A model generated the notes under the pieces. It worked only from the letters and a program-made list of their open reading frames with translations, was not told the DNA's origin and ran no database searches. A stretch of DNA of 64,000 nt from Lentisphaera profundi. GTDB taxonomy: Bacteria > Verrucomicrobiota > Lentisphaeria > Lentisphaerales > Lentisphaeraceae. Below are positions 11,015-52,795 of the stretch, one piece after another. Where the stretch lies: assembly GCF_028728065.1 (NCBI RefSeq), contig NZ_CP117811.1, forward strand, positions 1,240,001-1,304,000, given 5' to 3'. The position numbers and the translations under genes were made by a program. The stretch's first letter is position 1; every line of letters begins with the position of its first letter.

Positions 11015-13381
11015 ATGAAAAAATTATTATTACTCTTGTTTATACCGATTTTACTTGATGCGGCTATTCCCGATTTAACTCAAGGAGGAGCAGTACCTGC
11101 ACGTGATGCCAAAGACTGGAACTTGGGGCCGACGGGGGCGCGAGGCTGGATCTATAGTGATAAGTATTCGACTTCTGAAGCTCGACAGATTTATGTTACA
11201 TCTGTCGAGAAATCTTCTCCAGCTTATAAAATTTTACTTGTCGGTGATGTAATTATCGGTATAGGGAAAAGCAAATTTCAGGATGACCCCAGAAGAACTT
11301 TGGGCCGAGCCATCACTCAGGCAGAAGCTAGAAATGGAATCCTAGCTTTATTAATCTGGAGGCAAAATAAAATTGCGAGTATCAACTTAAAACTTAAAGT
11401 TTTGGGTAAGTATTCAGCGACGAGCCCTTTTACTTGTACAAAGTCAGAGATGATTTTTAAACAAGCTTGTGAGAACATTGCTAAAAATTTAAAGAAAAAT
11501 AAGAATAGATCGAATTGGATCGTTCGTTCCGCTAATACTTTGGCGCTGCTTGCTAGTGGTGATCGTCGTTATTTATCCCTGATAAAAAAAGAAGTTGCGG
11601 AAGCCGCAAAATATCAGGGGATACGTACGAATAGTTATTACTCATGGTTTTATGGACCGGTCACTAGTTTGATTGCCGAATATACGTTGGCCACAGGAGA
11701 CAAACGCTACCTCAAAGATCTTAAACGAATTGCTTTGGAGATAGTTAATGGGCAGAGTCCTGTGGGTTCTTGGGGACATCGCTTTGTGGATCCTAATGGT
11801 CGACTACGGGGTTACGGCATGATGAATGCTCCTGGCCTGCCTTTAACGCTCTCACTTGTCTTGGCTAGAAAGGCGGGGGTGAAAGATGCCAAGTTCGATC
11901 AAGCGATTGAAAAAAGTACTAAACTCTTGCGATTCTATGTGGGTAAGGGAGCGATTCCCTATGGTGATCATCATCCCTGGACTCAAACGCATGATGATAA
12001 TGGGAAAAATGGCATGGCAGCGGTGTTGTTTAATCTTTTGGGTGATAAAGAAGCCGCGGGATATTTTTCTCGTATGAGTGTGGCAACACACTCAGATGAG
12101 AGAGAAATGGGTCATACGGGTAATTTCTTTAATATTCAGTGGGCGCTGCCGGGCGTGGCACTCTCGGGACCTCAAGCAAGTGGGGCGTGGATGCGTGAGT
12201 ATTCTTGGTATTATGATTTAGCACGTCGTTGGGATGGTAGTTTTATTCATCAAGGAGCCCCCCAAGATAAAAAAGATTCCTATCGAAATTGGGACACAAG
12301 CGGTGTCATGGTCTTAGCCTATGCACAGGGAAATCGCAATATTTACTTAACAGGAAAAAAAAGCGATCTTGTCGAGCAAATATCAACTGCGAATGCAGAA
12401 GCAATAGTGGCACTTGGGCGTGGATGGACTTTGAAAAATAAACATGAGTATCTCAATGGGCGAAGTGATAAGGCTCTCGTTTTAGCATTGAGCAATTGGT
12501 CACCAGTGATGCGAATCCGTGCAGCGGAAGCATTAGCCAAAAGAAAGCCAAAAGATTTAAAGCCTTACTTTGAACTCTTGGATTCAAATGATCTTTATTC
12601 TGCTTTAGGAGCCTGTGAACTGATCATCCAAATGAAAGGCCAGGCAAAAGACGCGGTGCCTCAGCTCATTAAATGGCTCGATTATCCAGATTTGTGGTTA
12701 AGGATTAAAGCAGCGGATGCATTAGCCGCTATTGGTCAGCCCTCGATGAAAGCGGTGCCACGGATGCTAGAAATGTTTGCTGAGCAATCCTCCGGTGACC
12801 CGCGTGGAATGCTTCAGCGCTACCTCTGTTTTGCCTTGTTTAATAAGCGAGGTGGCTTGTTGGGAAAATTCCTTGATGGTGTGGATAAAAAAGATCTTCT
12901 TGAAGCCGTTAAAATAGGACTGAAAAATGATGATGGTCGTGCACGAGGTGCAATTAGTAGCGTTTACGAAAACTTAGAATTCGAGGAACTCGAACCCTTA
13001 CTGCCAGCTATTCTCGATGCTATAGAAGAGCCCGCACCGAGTGGGATCATGTTTGCCGATGGTATTCGTACGGCGGGCTTGAAGCTACTAGTGACTCATA
13101 AAGTTGCTGATGGACTGCCATTAACAGTGGACTACATCAAAAATCAAAAAAAGCATGGCAGTCAAAAACGCATCCTTGTTTTGATTAAATATGTTGAATC
13201 CTATGGGGCTCATGCACAAAAAGAAATCGCTAAAATGAATGATATTATTGACTACTTTGAAAAACAAGAAGAAGGTTTTCCCAAAAAGCTCAGTATGCAA
13301 AAAGCTCAATACCTGCGCGAATCAATTGAACGCATCCAAAAAACAAATCTTAGGCCGCAGTTAAAATTTATAGAGAAGTAA
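11015..13381 (+). CDS. DUF6288 family exported protein with PDZ and HEAT-like regions
   Basis: A 788-residue exported protein (signal peptide about 1-16). Residues 35-130 resemble a PDZ domain (RGWIYSDKYSTSEARQIYVT, later GDVIIGIGKSKFQDDPRRT). Residues 140-480 form the helical, barrel-like DUF6288 core typical of Lentisphaera and planctomycetes, with conserved-looking GYGMMNAPGL and HTGNFFN. Residues 490-780 are alpha-helical repeats of HEAT type (MRIRAAEALAKR; WLRIKAADALAAIG). No catalytic residues can be assigned. Co-location with SASA and sulfatase genes suggests a role in polysaccharide use. Spacing of 14 bp to the upstream esterase suggests an operon. Confidence 0.75.
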   Translation: MKKLLLLLFIPILLDAAIPDLTQGGAVPARDAKDWNLGPTGARGWIYSDKYSTSEARQIYVTSVEKSSPAYKILLVGDVIIGIGKSKFQDDPRRTLGRAITQAEARNGILALLIWRQNKIASINLKLKVLGKYSATSPFTCTKSEMIFKQACENIAKNLKKNKNRSNWIVRSANTLALLASGDRRYLSLIKKEVAEAAKYQGIRTNSYYSWFYGPVTSLIAEYTLATGDKRYLKDLKRIALEIVNGQSPVGSWGHRFVDPNGRLRGYGMMNAPGLPLTLSLVLARKAGVKDAKFDQAIEKSTKLLRFYVGKGAIPYGDHHPWTQTHDDNGKNGMAAVLFNLLGDKEAAGYFSRMSVATHSDEREMGHTGNFFNIQWALPGVALSGPQASGAWMREYSWYYDLARRWDGSFIHQGAPQDKKDSYRNWDTSGVMVLAYAQGNRNIYLTGKKSDLVEQISTANAEAIVALGRGWTLKNKHEYLNGRSDKALVLALSNWSPVMRIRAAEALAKRKPKDLKPYFELLDSNDLYSALGACELIIQMKGQAKDAVPQLIKWLDYPDLWLRIKAADALAAIGQPSMKAVPRMLEMFAEQSSGDPRGMLQRYLCFALFNKRGGLLGKFLDGVDKKDLLEAVKIGLKNDDGRARGAISSVYENLEFEELEPLLPAILDAIEEPAPSGIMFADGIRTAGLKLLVTHKVADGLPLTVDYIKNQKKHGSQKRILVLIKYVESYGAHAQKEIAKMNDIIDYFEKQEEGFPKKLSMQKAQYLRESIERIQKTNLRPQLKFIEK

Positions 13382-13488: not shown

Positions 13489-13515
13489 CTGGGAGCGCCA
13501 ATTTGCAATCGGCAT
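13489..13515. repeat. REP-like palindrome, family 1
   Basis: CTGGGAGCGCC followed by AATTTGCAATCGGCAT: the GGGAGC-flanked CGATTTGCAATCG palindrome, here with one mismatch. It sits 30 bases ahead of the transposase remnant. Confidence 0.6.
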
Positions 13516-13692
13516 TAATCAAGAGCCCTTTAAAAGAGAAATAAATGCGTGAGGGATTTAACAATAGTGAAGCTTGGCATAGTCGAGGTTATTTGCCCCA
13601 TTACGATGTAGAAGGCAAGTATCAGATGATTAGCTATCGTCTTGCGGATAGCTTGCCCCAAGAAGTTCTTTTAAACTTAGAAAATGACCTTG

Positions 13693-13718
13693 CTGGGAGC
13701 GCCGATTTGCAATCGCAT
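13693..13718. repeat. REP-like palindrome inside the transposase
   Basis: CTGGGAGCGCC then GATTTGCAATCGCAT, a family-1 copy located where the transposase reading frame is broken, so its insertion may be the cause of the shift. Confidence 0.6.
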
Positions 13719-13995
13719 TATCAAAAGATGATAAAAGGGCAATGGACAAACGCAAAATCATCGAAAAGTACCTAGATAGTGGATACGGTTCATGCTTATT
13801 AAAAGATTCTCGTACAGCCGCAATTCTTGTCGAAGGCTGGAGGTTTTTTGATACAGAACGTTATGATCTTATTGCCTATGTGGTGATGCCGAATCATGTA
13901 CATCTCTTGATTAAAACTTACGAAGGCTGGAGTATGGGAGATTTAGTAAAATCGTGGAAGAGGGCGTCGACCAAGTCCATAAGACATTTATATAG

Positions 13996-14023
13996 AGCCG
14001 ATTGCAAATCGGAGCTCCCAGCA
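13996..14023. repeat. REP-like palindrome inside the transposase, inverted
   Basis: GCCGATTGCAAATCGG followed by AGCTCCCAGCAG, in opposite orientation to the copy at 13693. It keeps the reading frame open. Confidence 0.6.
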
Positions 14024-14214
14024 GGATTCCACCCAGGGCTATTAAAAGAAGGCAAGTCTTTTTGGCAGCGGGAGTATTGGGATCGTTTTATTCGCGATGA
14101 AAGGCATTATTATGCTACAATAGATTATATTCACCATAATACCGTAAAAGCAAATTTAGTGAATAAGGCCGTGGATTGGGCGTATTCATCTTGTGGAAAA
14201 GAAGGAGAAATAAA

Positions 14215-15114
14215 ATGAAAAGAACACTTATGATTATTGGCGGCTCGGGCTGTGTAGGTGAAGAGACAGCCAAGGCTTTGCTGAGAGATGAAGATGTAAA
14301 AGTGATTTCCGTTGCACGGGGTAAATCGCCGGTTAATGCCATTGATGGGGTGATTTATGAACAGGGAGATATTTTAGATAGCGAATCAATCCTTAAGTTA
14401 TTAGAAAAATATTCAGTGAGTCATGTTTTACATACCGCCGCTTTGCGAACCTCGCAATGCAAAGATCAGCCCAGACAAGCAGTAGAAATCAATATCAATG
14501 GTACGACTAATGTCTTGGAGGCCGTCCGCGAATATGGCAAAGTAGAACACTTTGTATTCATCAGTACTGCGGCGGTTTATAAAGTGCCTGAAGATGACAG
14601 TTTTCCCGATGAAAATTCGCCTAGCGAAGCCTTGAACCTCTATACGGCAACAAAACTCGCAGGTGAAGTCCTAGTTGAATCTTATGCTCATAGCTATGGC
14701 ATCAAAGCCACGGTGCTGCGACCGCAAATTATTTATGGACCGACTCGAGGCAGCGAAGGCTCCACGGCTGGTTTAAGCACAGCCTTGAAGGAGGCGGGGG
14801 CAGGGCACTCATTCTGTATCCCTTTTAGCGGCACGTACGCTTTTACCTATAGCGGTGATGTGGGCAAGTTTTGCAAAGTCGTTCTTTTAGAGCCGAGTGA
14901 TAAGTTTGAGATATATAATGTCCCAGGTGAGTCACTCTCGATCAAAGATGTGGTTCAAGAAATCAACTCTCTTTGCGGGCAAGATTTGATCTCTTTTAAG
15001 CAAGAAGATTACCCCTTTGCCAAGGGCGTTTCGTCGAGCAAGTTTTTCAAAGATTTTCCGCAAAGCCAAGTAAGTCCCATGAGTGAAATCTTGCATGATC
15101 ACCTATTGAGCTAA
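14215..15114 (+). CDS. NAD-dependent epimerase/dehydratase (extended SDR)
   Basis: A 299-residue cytoplasmic Rossmann protein. ATG 14215 is chosen because GGAG lies just upstream and the cofactor loop GGSGCVG (9-15) then falls at the N-terminus. Ser118 in FISTAA and the Tyr143/Lys147 pair of YTATK form the usual catalytic set. Extended SDRs of this kind act on nucleotide sugars or related alcohols; the substrate is not recognisable. The start overlaps the transposase stop (ATGA), so expression may now depend on the damaged upstream frame or on a promoter within it. No signal peptide is present. Confidence 0.8.
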   Translation: MKRTLMIIGGSGCVGEETAKALLRDEDVKVISVARGKSPVNAIDGVIYEQGDILDSESILKLLEKYSVSHVLHTAALRTSQCKDQPRQAVEININGTTNVLEAVREYGKVEHFVFISTAAVYKVPEDDSFPDENSPSEALNLYTATKLAGEVLVESYAHSYGIKATVLRPQIIYGPTRGSEGSTAGLSTALKEAGAGHSFCIPFSGTYAFTYSGDVGKFCKVVLLEPSDKFEIYNVPGESLSIKDVVQEINSLCGQDLISFKQEDYPFAKGVSSSKFFKDFPQSQVSPMSEILHDHLLS

Positions 15115-15252
15115 AAAGAGGTTTGGAACTTAAGTGCTACTACCTTTTTTAGTAGGGCCCCGAGGGCTCCTCGGCCACCGGAGGTGTTTATACTGGGGCG
15201 GAGCCCCAAGTTTGACTAAATGAGGGACGAGTCGCTCACACTCCCACCAAGA

Positions 15253-15296
15253 TACTGCCGTATGGGCAAATGCTTTTTATCCGCCTGTATGGCAGC
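15253..15296. repeat. REP-like hairpin, family 2
   Basis: TGCCGTATGGGCAAATGC faces ATCCGCCTGTATGGCA, read in opposite orientation to the copy at 54323. Confidence 0.5.
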
Positions 15297-15383
15297 AGCC
15301 CTTGACCCGGCGACTGGTGCGGAGCCCCCTATATTTTTATCCGCCCGCCGGAGGCATTAAAATCATAAACTAATATTCATCAT

Positions 15384-15408
15384 CCGCATTGGAATGCGGA
15401 GCTCCCAG
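15384..15408. repeat. REP-like palindrome, family 1 variant
   Basis: CCGCATTGGAATGCGG followed by AGCTCCCAG. The stem bases differ from other copies but change in compensating pairs, and the GCTCCCAG flank is kept. Confidence 0.5.
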
Positions 15409-39462: not shown

Positions 39463-39487
39463 GCCGATTAAAAATCGGCGCTCCCAG
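39463..39487. repeat. REP-like palindrome, family 1
   Basis: GCCGATTAAAAATCGGC followed by GCTCCCAG: a perfect stem with the family's flanking sequence. Confidence 0.6.
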
Positions 39488-52770: not shown

Positions 52771-52795
52771 GCCGATTCCAAATCGGCGCTCCCAG
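52771..52795. repeat. REP-like palindrome, family 1
   Basis: GCCGATTCCAAATCGGC followed by GCTCCCAG. Confidence 0.6.

Follow-up and report, generated by a model that had tools for sequence, protein, structure and literature searches.

A frame-broken RAYT gene of Lentisphaera profundi and copies of its own REP family at two recurring sites within the gene

The DNA analysed here (the window) is a stretch of 64,000 nucleotides from contig NZ_CP117811.1 of Lentisphaera profundi, and positions are counted from its first letter. A transposase gene on the forward strand, split into two open reading frames, is flanked by a DUF6288 gene (11015-13381) and an epimerase gene. The N-terminal frame (13545-13775) contains the first beta strand and the stretch RLADSLP. 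The main frame (13742-14218) matches PF01797 and scores above the cut-off of NF047646, the NCBI model for REP-associated tyrosine transposase (RAYT). Within the main frame are the HUH motif NHVH (13892-13903) and the Y motif YIHHNT (14126-14143), whose presumed catalytic Tyr is assigned by family resemblance; in this motif NP is present in the 13 relatives examined. The best match of the RAYT by profile was 4er8, a TnpA_REP with its REP hairpin, and 4er8 was also the best fold match of a protein model of the related RAYT L046. Judged from its sequence, the gene is a RAYT (TnpA_REP) with a Y1 HUH transposase domain and with HUH and Tyr motifs present, as the preliminary description had held, and it is frame-broken. 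In this assembly RLADSLP and the following YLD stretch are read in different frames. This is the only break, and the frame 3' of it is open and conserved. In the sequence ATGA (14215-14218) the stop codon of the RAYT gene shares bases with the epimerase start codon, so the two genes may be translationally coupled.

Three copies of one palindrome were found in or next to the gene, as previously described. The first, CTGGGAGCGCCAATTTGCAATCGG, lies 5' of the gene (13489-13512, + strand) and was recognised by repeat search and hairpin folding as a REP with a degraded hairpin. The second, CTGGGAGCGCCGATTTGCAATCG (13693-13715, + strand), was placed by repeat search and alignment at the frame break, between the RLADSLP and YLD frames; this position is called site A below. 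The third (13998-14021, - strand), identified in the same way, is read in frame on the + strand within RADCKSELPA and occupies site B. The REP consists of CT, the foot GGGAGC and a short hairpin with a three-base loop, and the foot of these REPs is CTGGGAGC or near it. Two distant copies with loop variants (39464-39485 and 52772-52793, both - strand) were found by genome search and folding. Single-stranded DNA hairpin z values were +0.1 and +0.4 for the two degraded + copies and -1.6 for the copy at site B, while the distant copies fold well (-2.8 for 39464 and -3.2 for 52772).

The 15-mer core gave 9 matches in the window with up to 3 mismatches, some of them one palindrome counted on both strands, against 1.8 expected, and 0 of 100 shuffles reached 9. 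In the whole 5.46 Mb genome the exact 21-mer GGGAGCKCCRATTTGCAATCG occurs only at the three places at the RAYT gene; with up to 3 mismatches it occurs at 8 places, against 1 for the reversed control pattern. The window shuffles and the genome-wide control counts thus rule out chance palindromes. The genome-wide count proposed in the preliminary description gave 8 clear copies including loop variants, all on the contig of the window gene (C1): three at the RAYT gene, on which the family is centred, and five in other places. Three of the five outside copies lie within 87 kb of the gene (chance about 3e-4, the distance having been picked after the places were known). The cognate REPs expected of a RAYT, both adjoining its gene and in other parts of the genome, are present here, in a number that stays below the more than 100 that would be called 'abundant'. 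Two flanking REPs in inverted orientation are also expected of a RAYT; here there is a + REP 5' of the gene, but the - copy lies inside it.

Other RAYTs of the same genome have REPs built on the same plan. The GCATTCCAATGC type (GCATT family) gave 29 matches, of which 4 are in or beside its RAYT on contig C2, 10 elsewhere on C2 and 15 on C1; all 10 outside copies on C2 are within 138 kb of that RAYT, a distance likewise picked after the places were known. REPs of the GGGCG type gave 76 matches with up to 2 mismatches. The reversed patterns used as controls in these REP-family searches matched at most once. Of 89 REPs collected from the window and from 40 stretches around REP copies, 75 have CT directly before the foot, compared with 24 of 132 GGGAGC sites in a genome sample. 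Within this set, which leaves out the RAYT genes L010, L014 and L015, 17 REPs lie inside frames of at least 120 aa: one in the window RAYT, three in one ABC-type frame of 612 aa, one in a frame of 800 aa and 12 in spurious-looking frames of 124-241 aa. The ABC-transporter-like frame (L237:99-1937) is open throughout and carries its three REPs, which belong to another family with a GAATTC core, at C1:2345926, 2346121 and 2346337. The long frame (L235, at least 800 aa) carries one GGGCG-type REP at C2:1616487.

Aligned homologues and the DNA between conserved codons define the two sites within the gene. Site A lies between RLADSLP and the YLD.GYGSC stretch, 5' of the HUH core, and site B between SWKS and WQREYWD, that is, between HUH and the catalytic Tyr. 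REPs occupy the same places in seven genes of the same genus and family (L010, L014, L018, L021, L033, L077 and L081) and in L090 from another family of the same class; L014 has two REPs at A, and L081 has two at A and several in tandem at B. Seven relatives (L010, L014, L018, L021, L033, L081 and L090) are open from end to end with in-frame REPs at both sites. The peptides AGSAGVSPA, LGAPHSNAD, NAGGSPALP and ADCKSELPA are different palindromes translated in different frames, and the REP-bearing relatives differ in residues at A and B because each carries a different palindrome. Relatives without REPs there (L036, L012 and L024) have other residues at these positions. Both in-gene palindromes are insertions relative to such homologues, in agreement with the earlier proposal, and the same residues were not found without palindromic DNA. 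Among more distant RAYTs, both orientations occur at site B in L080, L100, L106, L046 and L049 (the records of the last two are titled Limisphaerales and Verrucomicrobia), and L107 has a both-orientation pair at A. In the low-confidence protein model of L046 (mean pLDDT 62, pTM 0.60) most of the site B insert is under pLDDT 50, and site A falls at two helices and the turn between them. We take A and B to be stretches that tolerate in-frame insertion, where own-family REPs may persist and be rewritten together with the family. The epimerase gene was matched in 3 of 5 genomes, and no RAYT frame lies directly in front of it in the two checked (L238 and L239); the upstream neighbour differs there too, so this is not a clean empty site.

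The wider survey comprised 145 RAYT loci, 130 of them with all anchors, and took in 30 loci (less duplicates) and 80 among the matches listed. The duplicates L091, L092, L103 and L131 were dropped. L121, at the same place as L114, was skipped in the counts of unit density, lesions and orientation, and L114, whose two tandem RAYTs mix anchors, was also left out of the orientation count. Automated calls whose feet looked chance-like, among them those in L045, L047, L051, L127 and L157 and a distant upstream - call in L019, were not accepted as REPs. In 130 genes the density of foot-plus-hairpin units was 4.1 per kb at B and 2.2 at A; it was 1.5-1.6 in the flanks, 1.0 in the first strand, 0.5 in the Y part and 0.3 in the core. 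These densities include weak calls, and some of the A calls in GC-rich genes look chance-like. When a similar second unit was required in the locus (131 genes), site A held + units in 7 genes, both orientations in 1 and - in 0, and site B held - units in 15, both in 5 and + in 1. Genes with a single orientation are thus + at A in 7 of 7 cases and - at B in 15 of 16. Under the same rule the core or Y part yielded 2 units, one of them the site A copy of the damaged L015. None of the genes with A or B units in this 131-gene count has the common spans (A 129 and B 57). Avoidance of stop codons was rejected as the cause of the orientation, seven REP types having been tested and found to lack a stop in any of six frames. 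Outward-pointing feet of flanking REPs, suggested by several loci, failed in the automated count of 131 genes: by a crude foot rule the nearest upstream REP was + in 37, - in 31 and absent in 63, and the nearest downstream REP was + in 36, - in 31 and absent in 64. At locus L114 (G237:C76:60015-61056) four similar palindromes lie inside its two tandem RAYT-like genes or in the DNA separating them.

In a tree of 55 RAYTs, computed with the A and B columns left out and with A/B labels set by hand, all 12 genes labelled A+ fall into a single 14-member clade (support 99/92) drawn from six genomes. Eleven of the 14 are A+B-, one has A only (L043), one B only (L034) and one neither (L036). The motif NHVH is present in all 14, WQ in 12 and YIxNNP in 4. 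The fewest changes on the tree are 3 for A+ and 6 for B-. A simple reading would be that A was gained once, long ago, and lost twice; by the same tree B- must have been gained or lost several times. The foot phase at A falls into two classes, which implies that the REP there shifted or was re-inserted at least once. The orientation counts for A in the clade are not independent trials, since a single inherited event may lie behind them.

The REPs at A and B of the same gene resemble each other. For 12 A/B hairpin pairs from the clade, set by hand, mean agreement was 0.91 within a gene and 0.55 between genes, and 0 of 4000 shuffles reached the observed value. With one gene per family (eight families), only the true A/B pairing among 40320 reached it. 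Agreement was weaker in L090 (0.82) and L043 (0.71). Since the match is to the gene's own partner while the sequence differs from gene to gene, the sites appear to be old and their sequence to have kept pace with the REP family of each RAYT.

Damage was recorded for the clade and its fragments in 18 loci (L009, L010, L013, L014, L015, L018, L019, L020, L021, L033, L034, L036, L043, L077, L081, L082, L083 and L090). Eight of these are damaged, and seven of the eight are affected at A or B. The window gene (L009) and L020 have a frame change between RLADSLP and YLD, within which the exact point of the lesion is not fixable; L020 has an additional stop in the core. In L019 the N-terminal part is absent as far as the site A REP, and in L015 a loss begins shortly 3' of it. 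L013 is a core piece that starts just after the site A REPs and apparently ends in the first bases of the site B REP, and L082 and L083 are C-terminal pieces starting in a remnant of the site B REP; the short remnants at the ends of L013 and L083 were judged by eye. L077 has a frame change in the Y part, near the contig end. Outside the clade, L161 is broken between the same anchors as the window gene and L020, in a gene without a REP.

The preliminary description had also suggested that the enzyme was disrupted by its own substrate. The break does lie at a REP. The part that is not supported is insertion as such as the cause: the seven open relatives with in-frame REPs at both sites indicate that the presence of a palindrome alone does not break the gene, and that the occupancy is most likely older than the break in the window. 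Later damage at a REP site would fit the break better than the insertion itself.

The explanation that we consider probable is as follows. The RAYT gene would have its own small REP family and a protein with two stretches that tolerate in-frame insertions. REPs of that family would have settled in both, with + orientation at A, where the clade ancestor probably already had them, and - orientation at B. There they would have remained, their sequence following the changes in the REP family of each RAYT. The most likely cause is that the enzyme, which would cut REPs in single-stranded DNA, acts most on those near its own gene and so rewrites or replaces them, possibly helped by recombination among copies. 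The cost would be that the sites are cut and joined, so that genes of the clade often fail there; the window copy would be such a failed gene, its frame lost at A. That RAYT activity does both the rewriting and the breaking is what we infer from the sequences. The explanation is supported by the identity of the RAYT, the same two sites in relatives, the unit densities, the A/B match, the clade support, the CT before the foot, the REPs near their RAYTs and the lesions. Weighing against it are the 15 GCATT copies on the other contig, far from that RAYT, the core stop of L020, the lesions of L077 and L161, the weaker agreement in L090 and L043, and the absence of in-gene REPs from L036.

A bolder version, put forward here only tentatively and with considerable doubt, is that the A(+)/B(-) pair is a maintained, built-in pair of substrates that encloses the HUH core with the feet facing out, as in a REPIN, and is rewritten with every change in the specificity of the enzyme. 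The core segment could then be cut out along the pair, as the two ends of the L013 fragment suggest. If this were true, the transposase gene would carry the current key to its own lock.

It is unlikely that the in-gene REPs are selected, their hairpins regulating or restraining the gene through feedback of the enzyme on its own DNA or mRNA. The A/B match would then reflect selection for recognition by the current enzyme; the matched turnover is consistent with this, as is the constant orientation in single-orientation genes even though seven REP types are free of stops in six frames. However, L036 has no in-gene REP, L034 and L043 have each lost one, and the larger lineage in the survey, which apparently thrives, lacks REPs at both sites; the orientation at A, moreover, may go back to a single inherited event.

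Slightly less probable is a functional gene whose frame break arose from faulty sequencing or assembly, or is overcome by frameshifting. Such a reading is in line with a single break, known from the assembly alone, and with the open, conserved frame 3' of it, whereas the decay of both + hairpins, YIHHNT where relatives have NP, and the clear losses at the same sites in other members of the clade argue against it. It is improbable that a RAYT gene, ordinary in other respects, was broken by the recent insertion of a REP: the break is located at a copy of the gene's own REP, but open relatives have REPs at the same site, occupancy of A is a trait of the whole clade on the tree, and the REP at the break is degraded as a hairpin and not fresh.

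In-frame REPs in RAYT genes are known. According to the main text of PMC6006769 (Quentin et al. 2018), TnpA_REP genes of subclass 2.4 (Bertels group 4) have REPs flanking and inside the transposase gene with the frame undisrupted, those inside lying generally between HuH and Y, which corresponds to site B. The window gene resembles them in its in-frame REP at site B, and its relatives do so at both sites. The feet of that subclass are GT[AG]G, in contrast to GGGAGC or near it here; its motifs are NH[IFV]H, WQ and YIxNNP, compared with NHVH and YIHHNT in the window gene, and it is spread over Cyanobacteria, Bacteroidetes and various phyla. The clade is likened to subclass 2.4 by these features and not by its place in the published phylogeny, and is not filed under it. 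Occupancy of site A, the opposite orientation of the paired sites, their matched turnover and lesions at the sites are absent from the main-text parts of PMC6006769; its supplementary figures, which show insertions, lie outside this comparison.

For Gammaproteobacteria, parts of PMC2817692 (Nunvar et al. 2010) describe one REP family per RAYT, with REPs adjoining the gene, RAYT and REP changing together and, in some genomes, REPs never farther than 200 kb from the RAYT gene. The P. putida REP given there (TGTGGGAGCGGGC...) resembles the units found here. REPs flank the gene in inverted orientation in those units, whereas here they also lie inside it and the nearest flanking REPs follow no orientation rule. 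Palindromes read in frame within genes are described, in sections of PMC3733652, as intragenic REPs and Rickettsia palindromic elements, including cases in the verrucomicrobium O. terrae; the hosts there are repair, replication and other genes, and here the host is a transposase. As stated in sections of PMC8266576, the TnpA_REP of E. coli recognises the REP as single-stranded DNA, but not the complementary strand, and its cut falls at a CT on the 5' or 3' side of the REP; CT is the cut dinucleotide of both the E. coli and the Stenotrophomonas enzymes.

Genes with two internal REPs at fixed codon positions allow turnover to be followed in place, and thereby bear on the joint change of specificity in a RAYT and its REPs. 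The clade also offers natural pairs of enzyme and substrate for assays. It also presents in-frame palindromes in such genes as old features of tolerant stretches and not as signs of a dead gene, although the same spots are the most frequent points of failure.

Further repeats were observed beside RAYT genes. Just 3' of the epimerase gene, at 15383-15406, is a REP of the GCATT family, the RAYT of which belongs to the other contig. Short direct repeats, ACTGGGGCGGAGCCCC and TTTTTATCCGCC, are found at 15192-15345 as another palindromic unit. In L027 the RAYT is followed on its 3' side by long open frames in which short peptides recur, as a tandem repeat in the DNA would produce.
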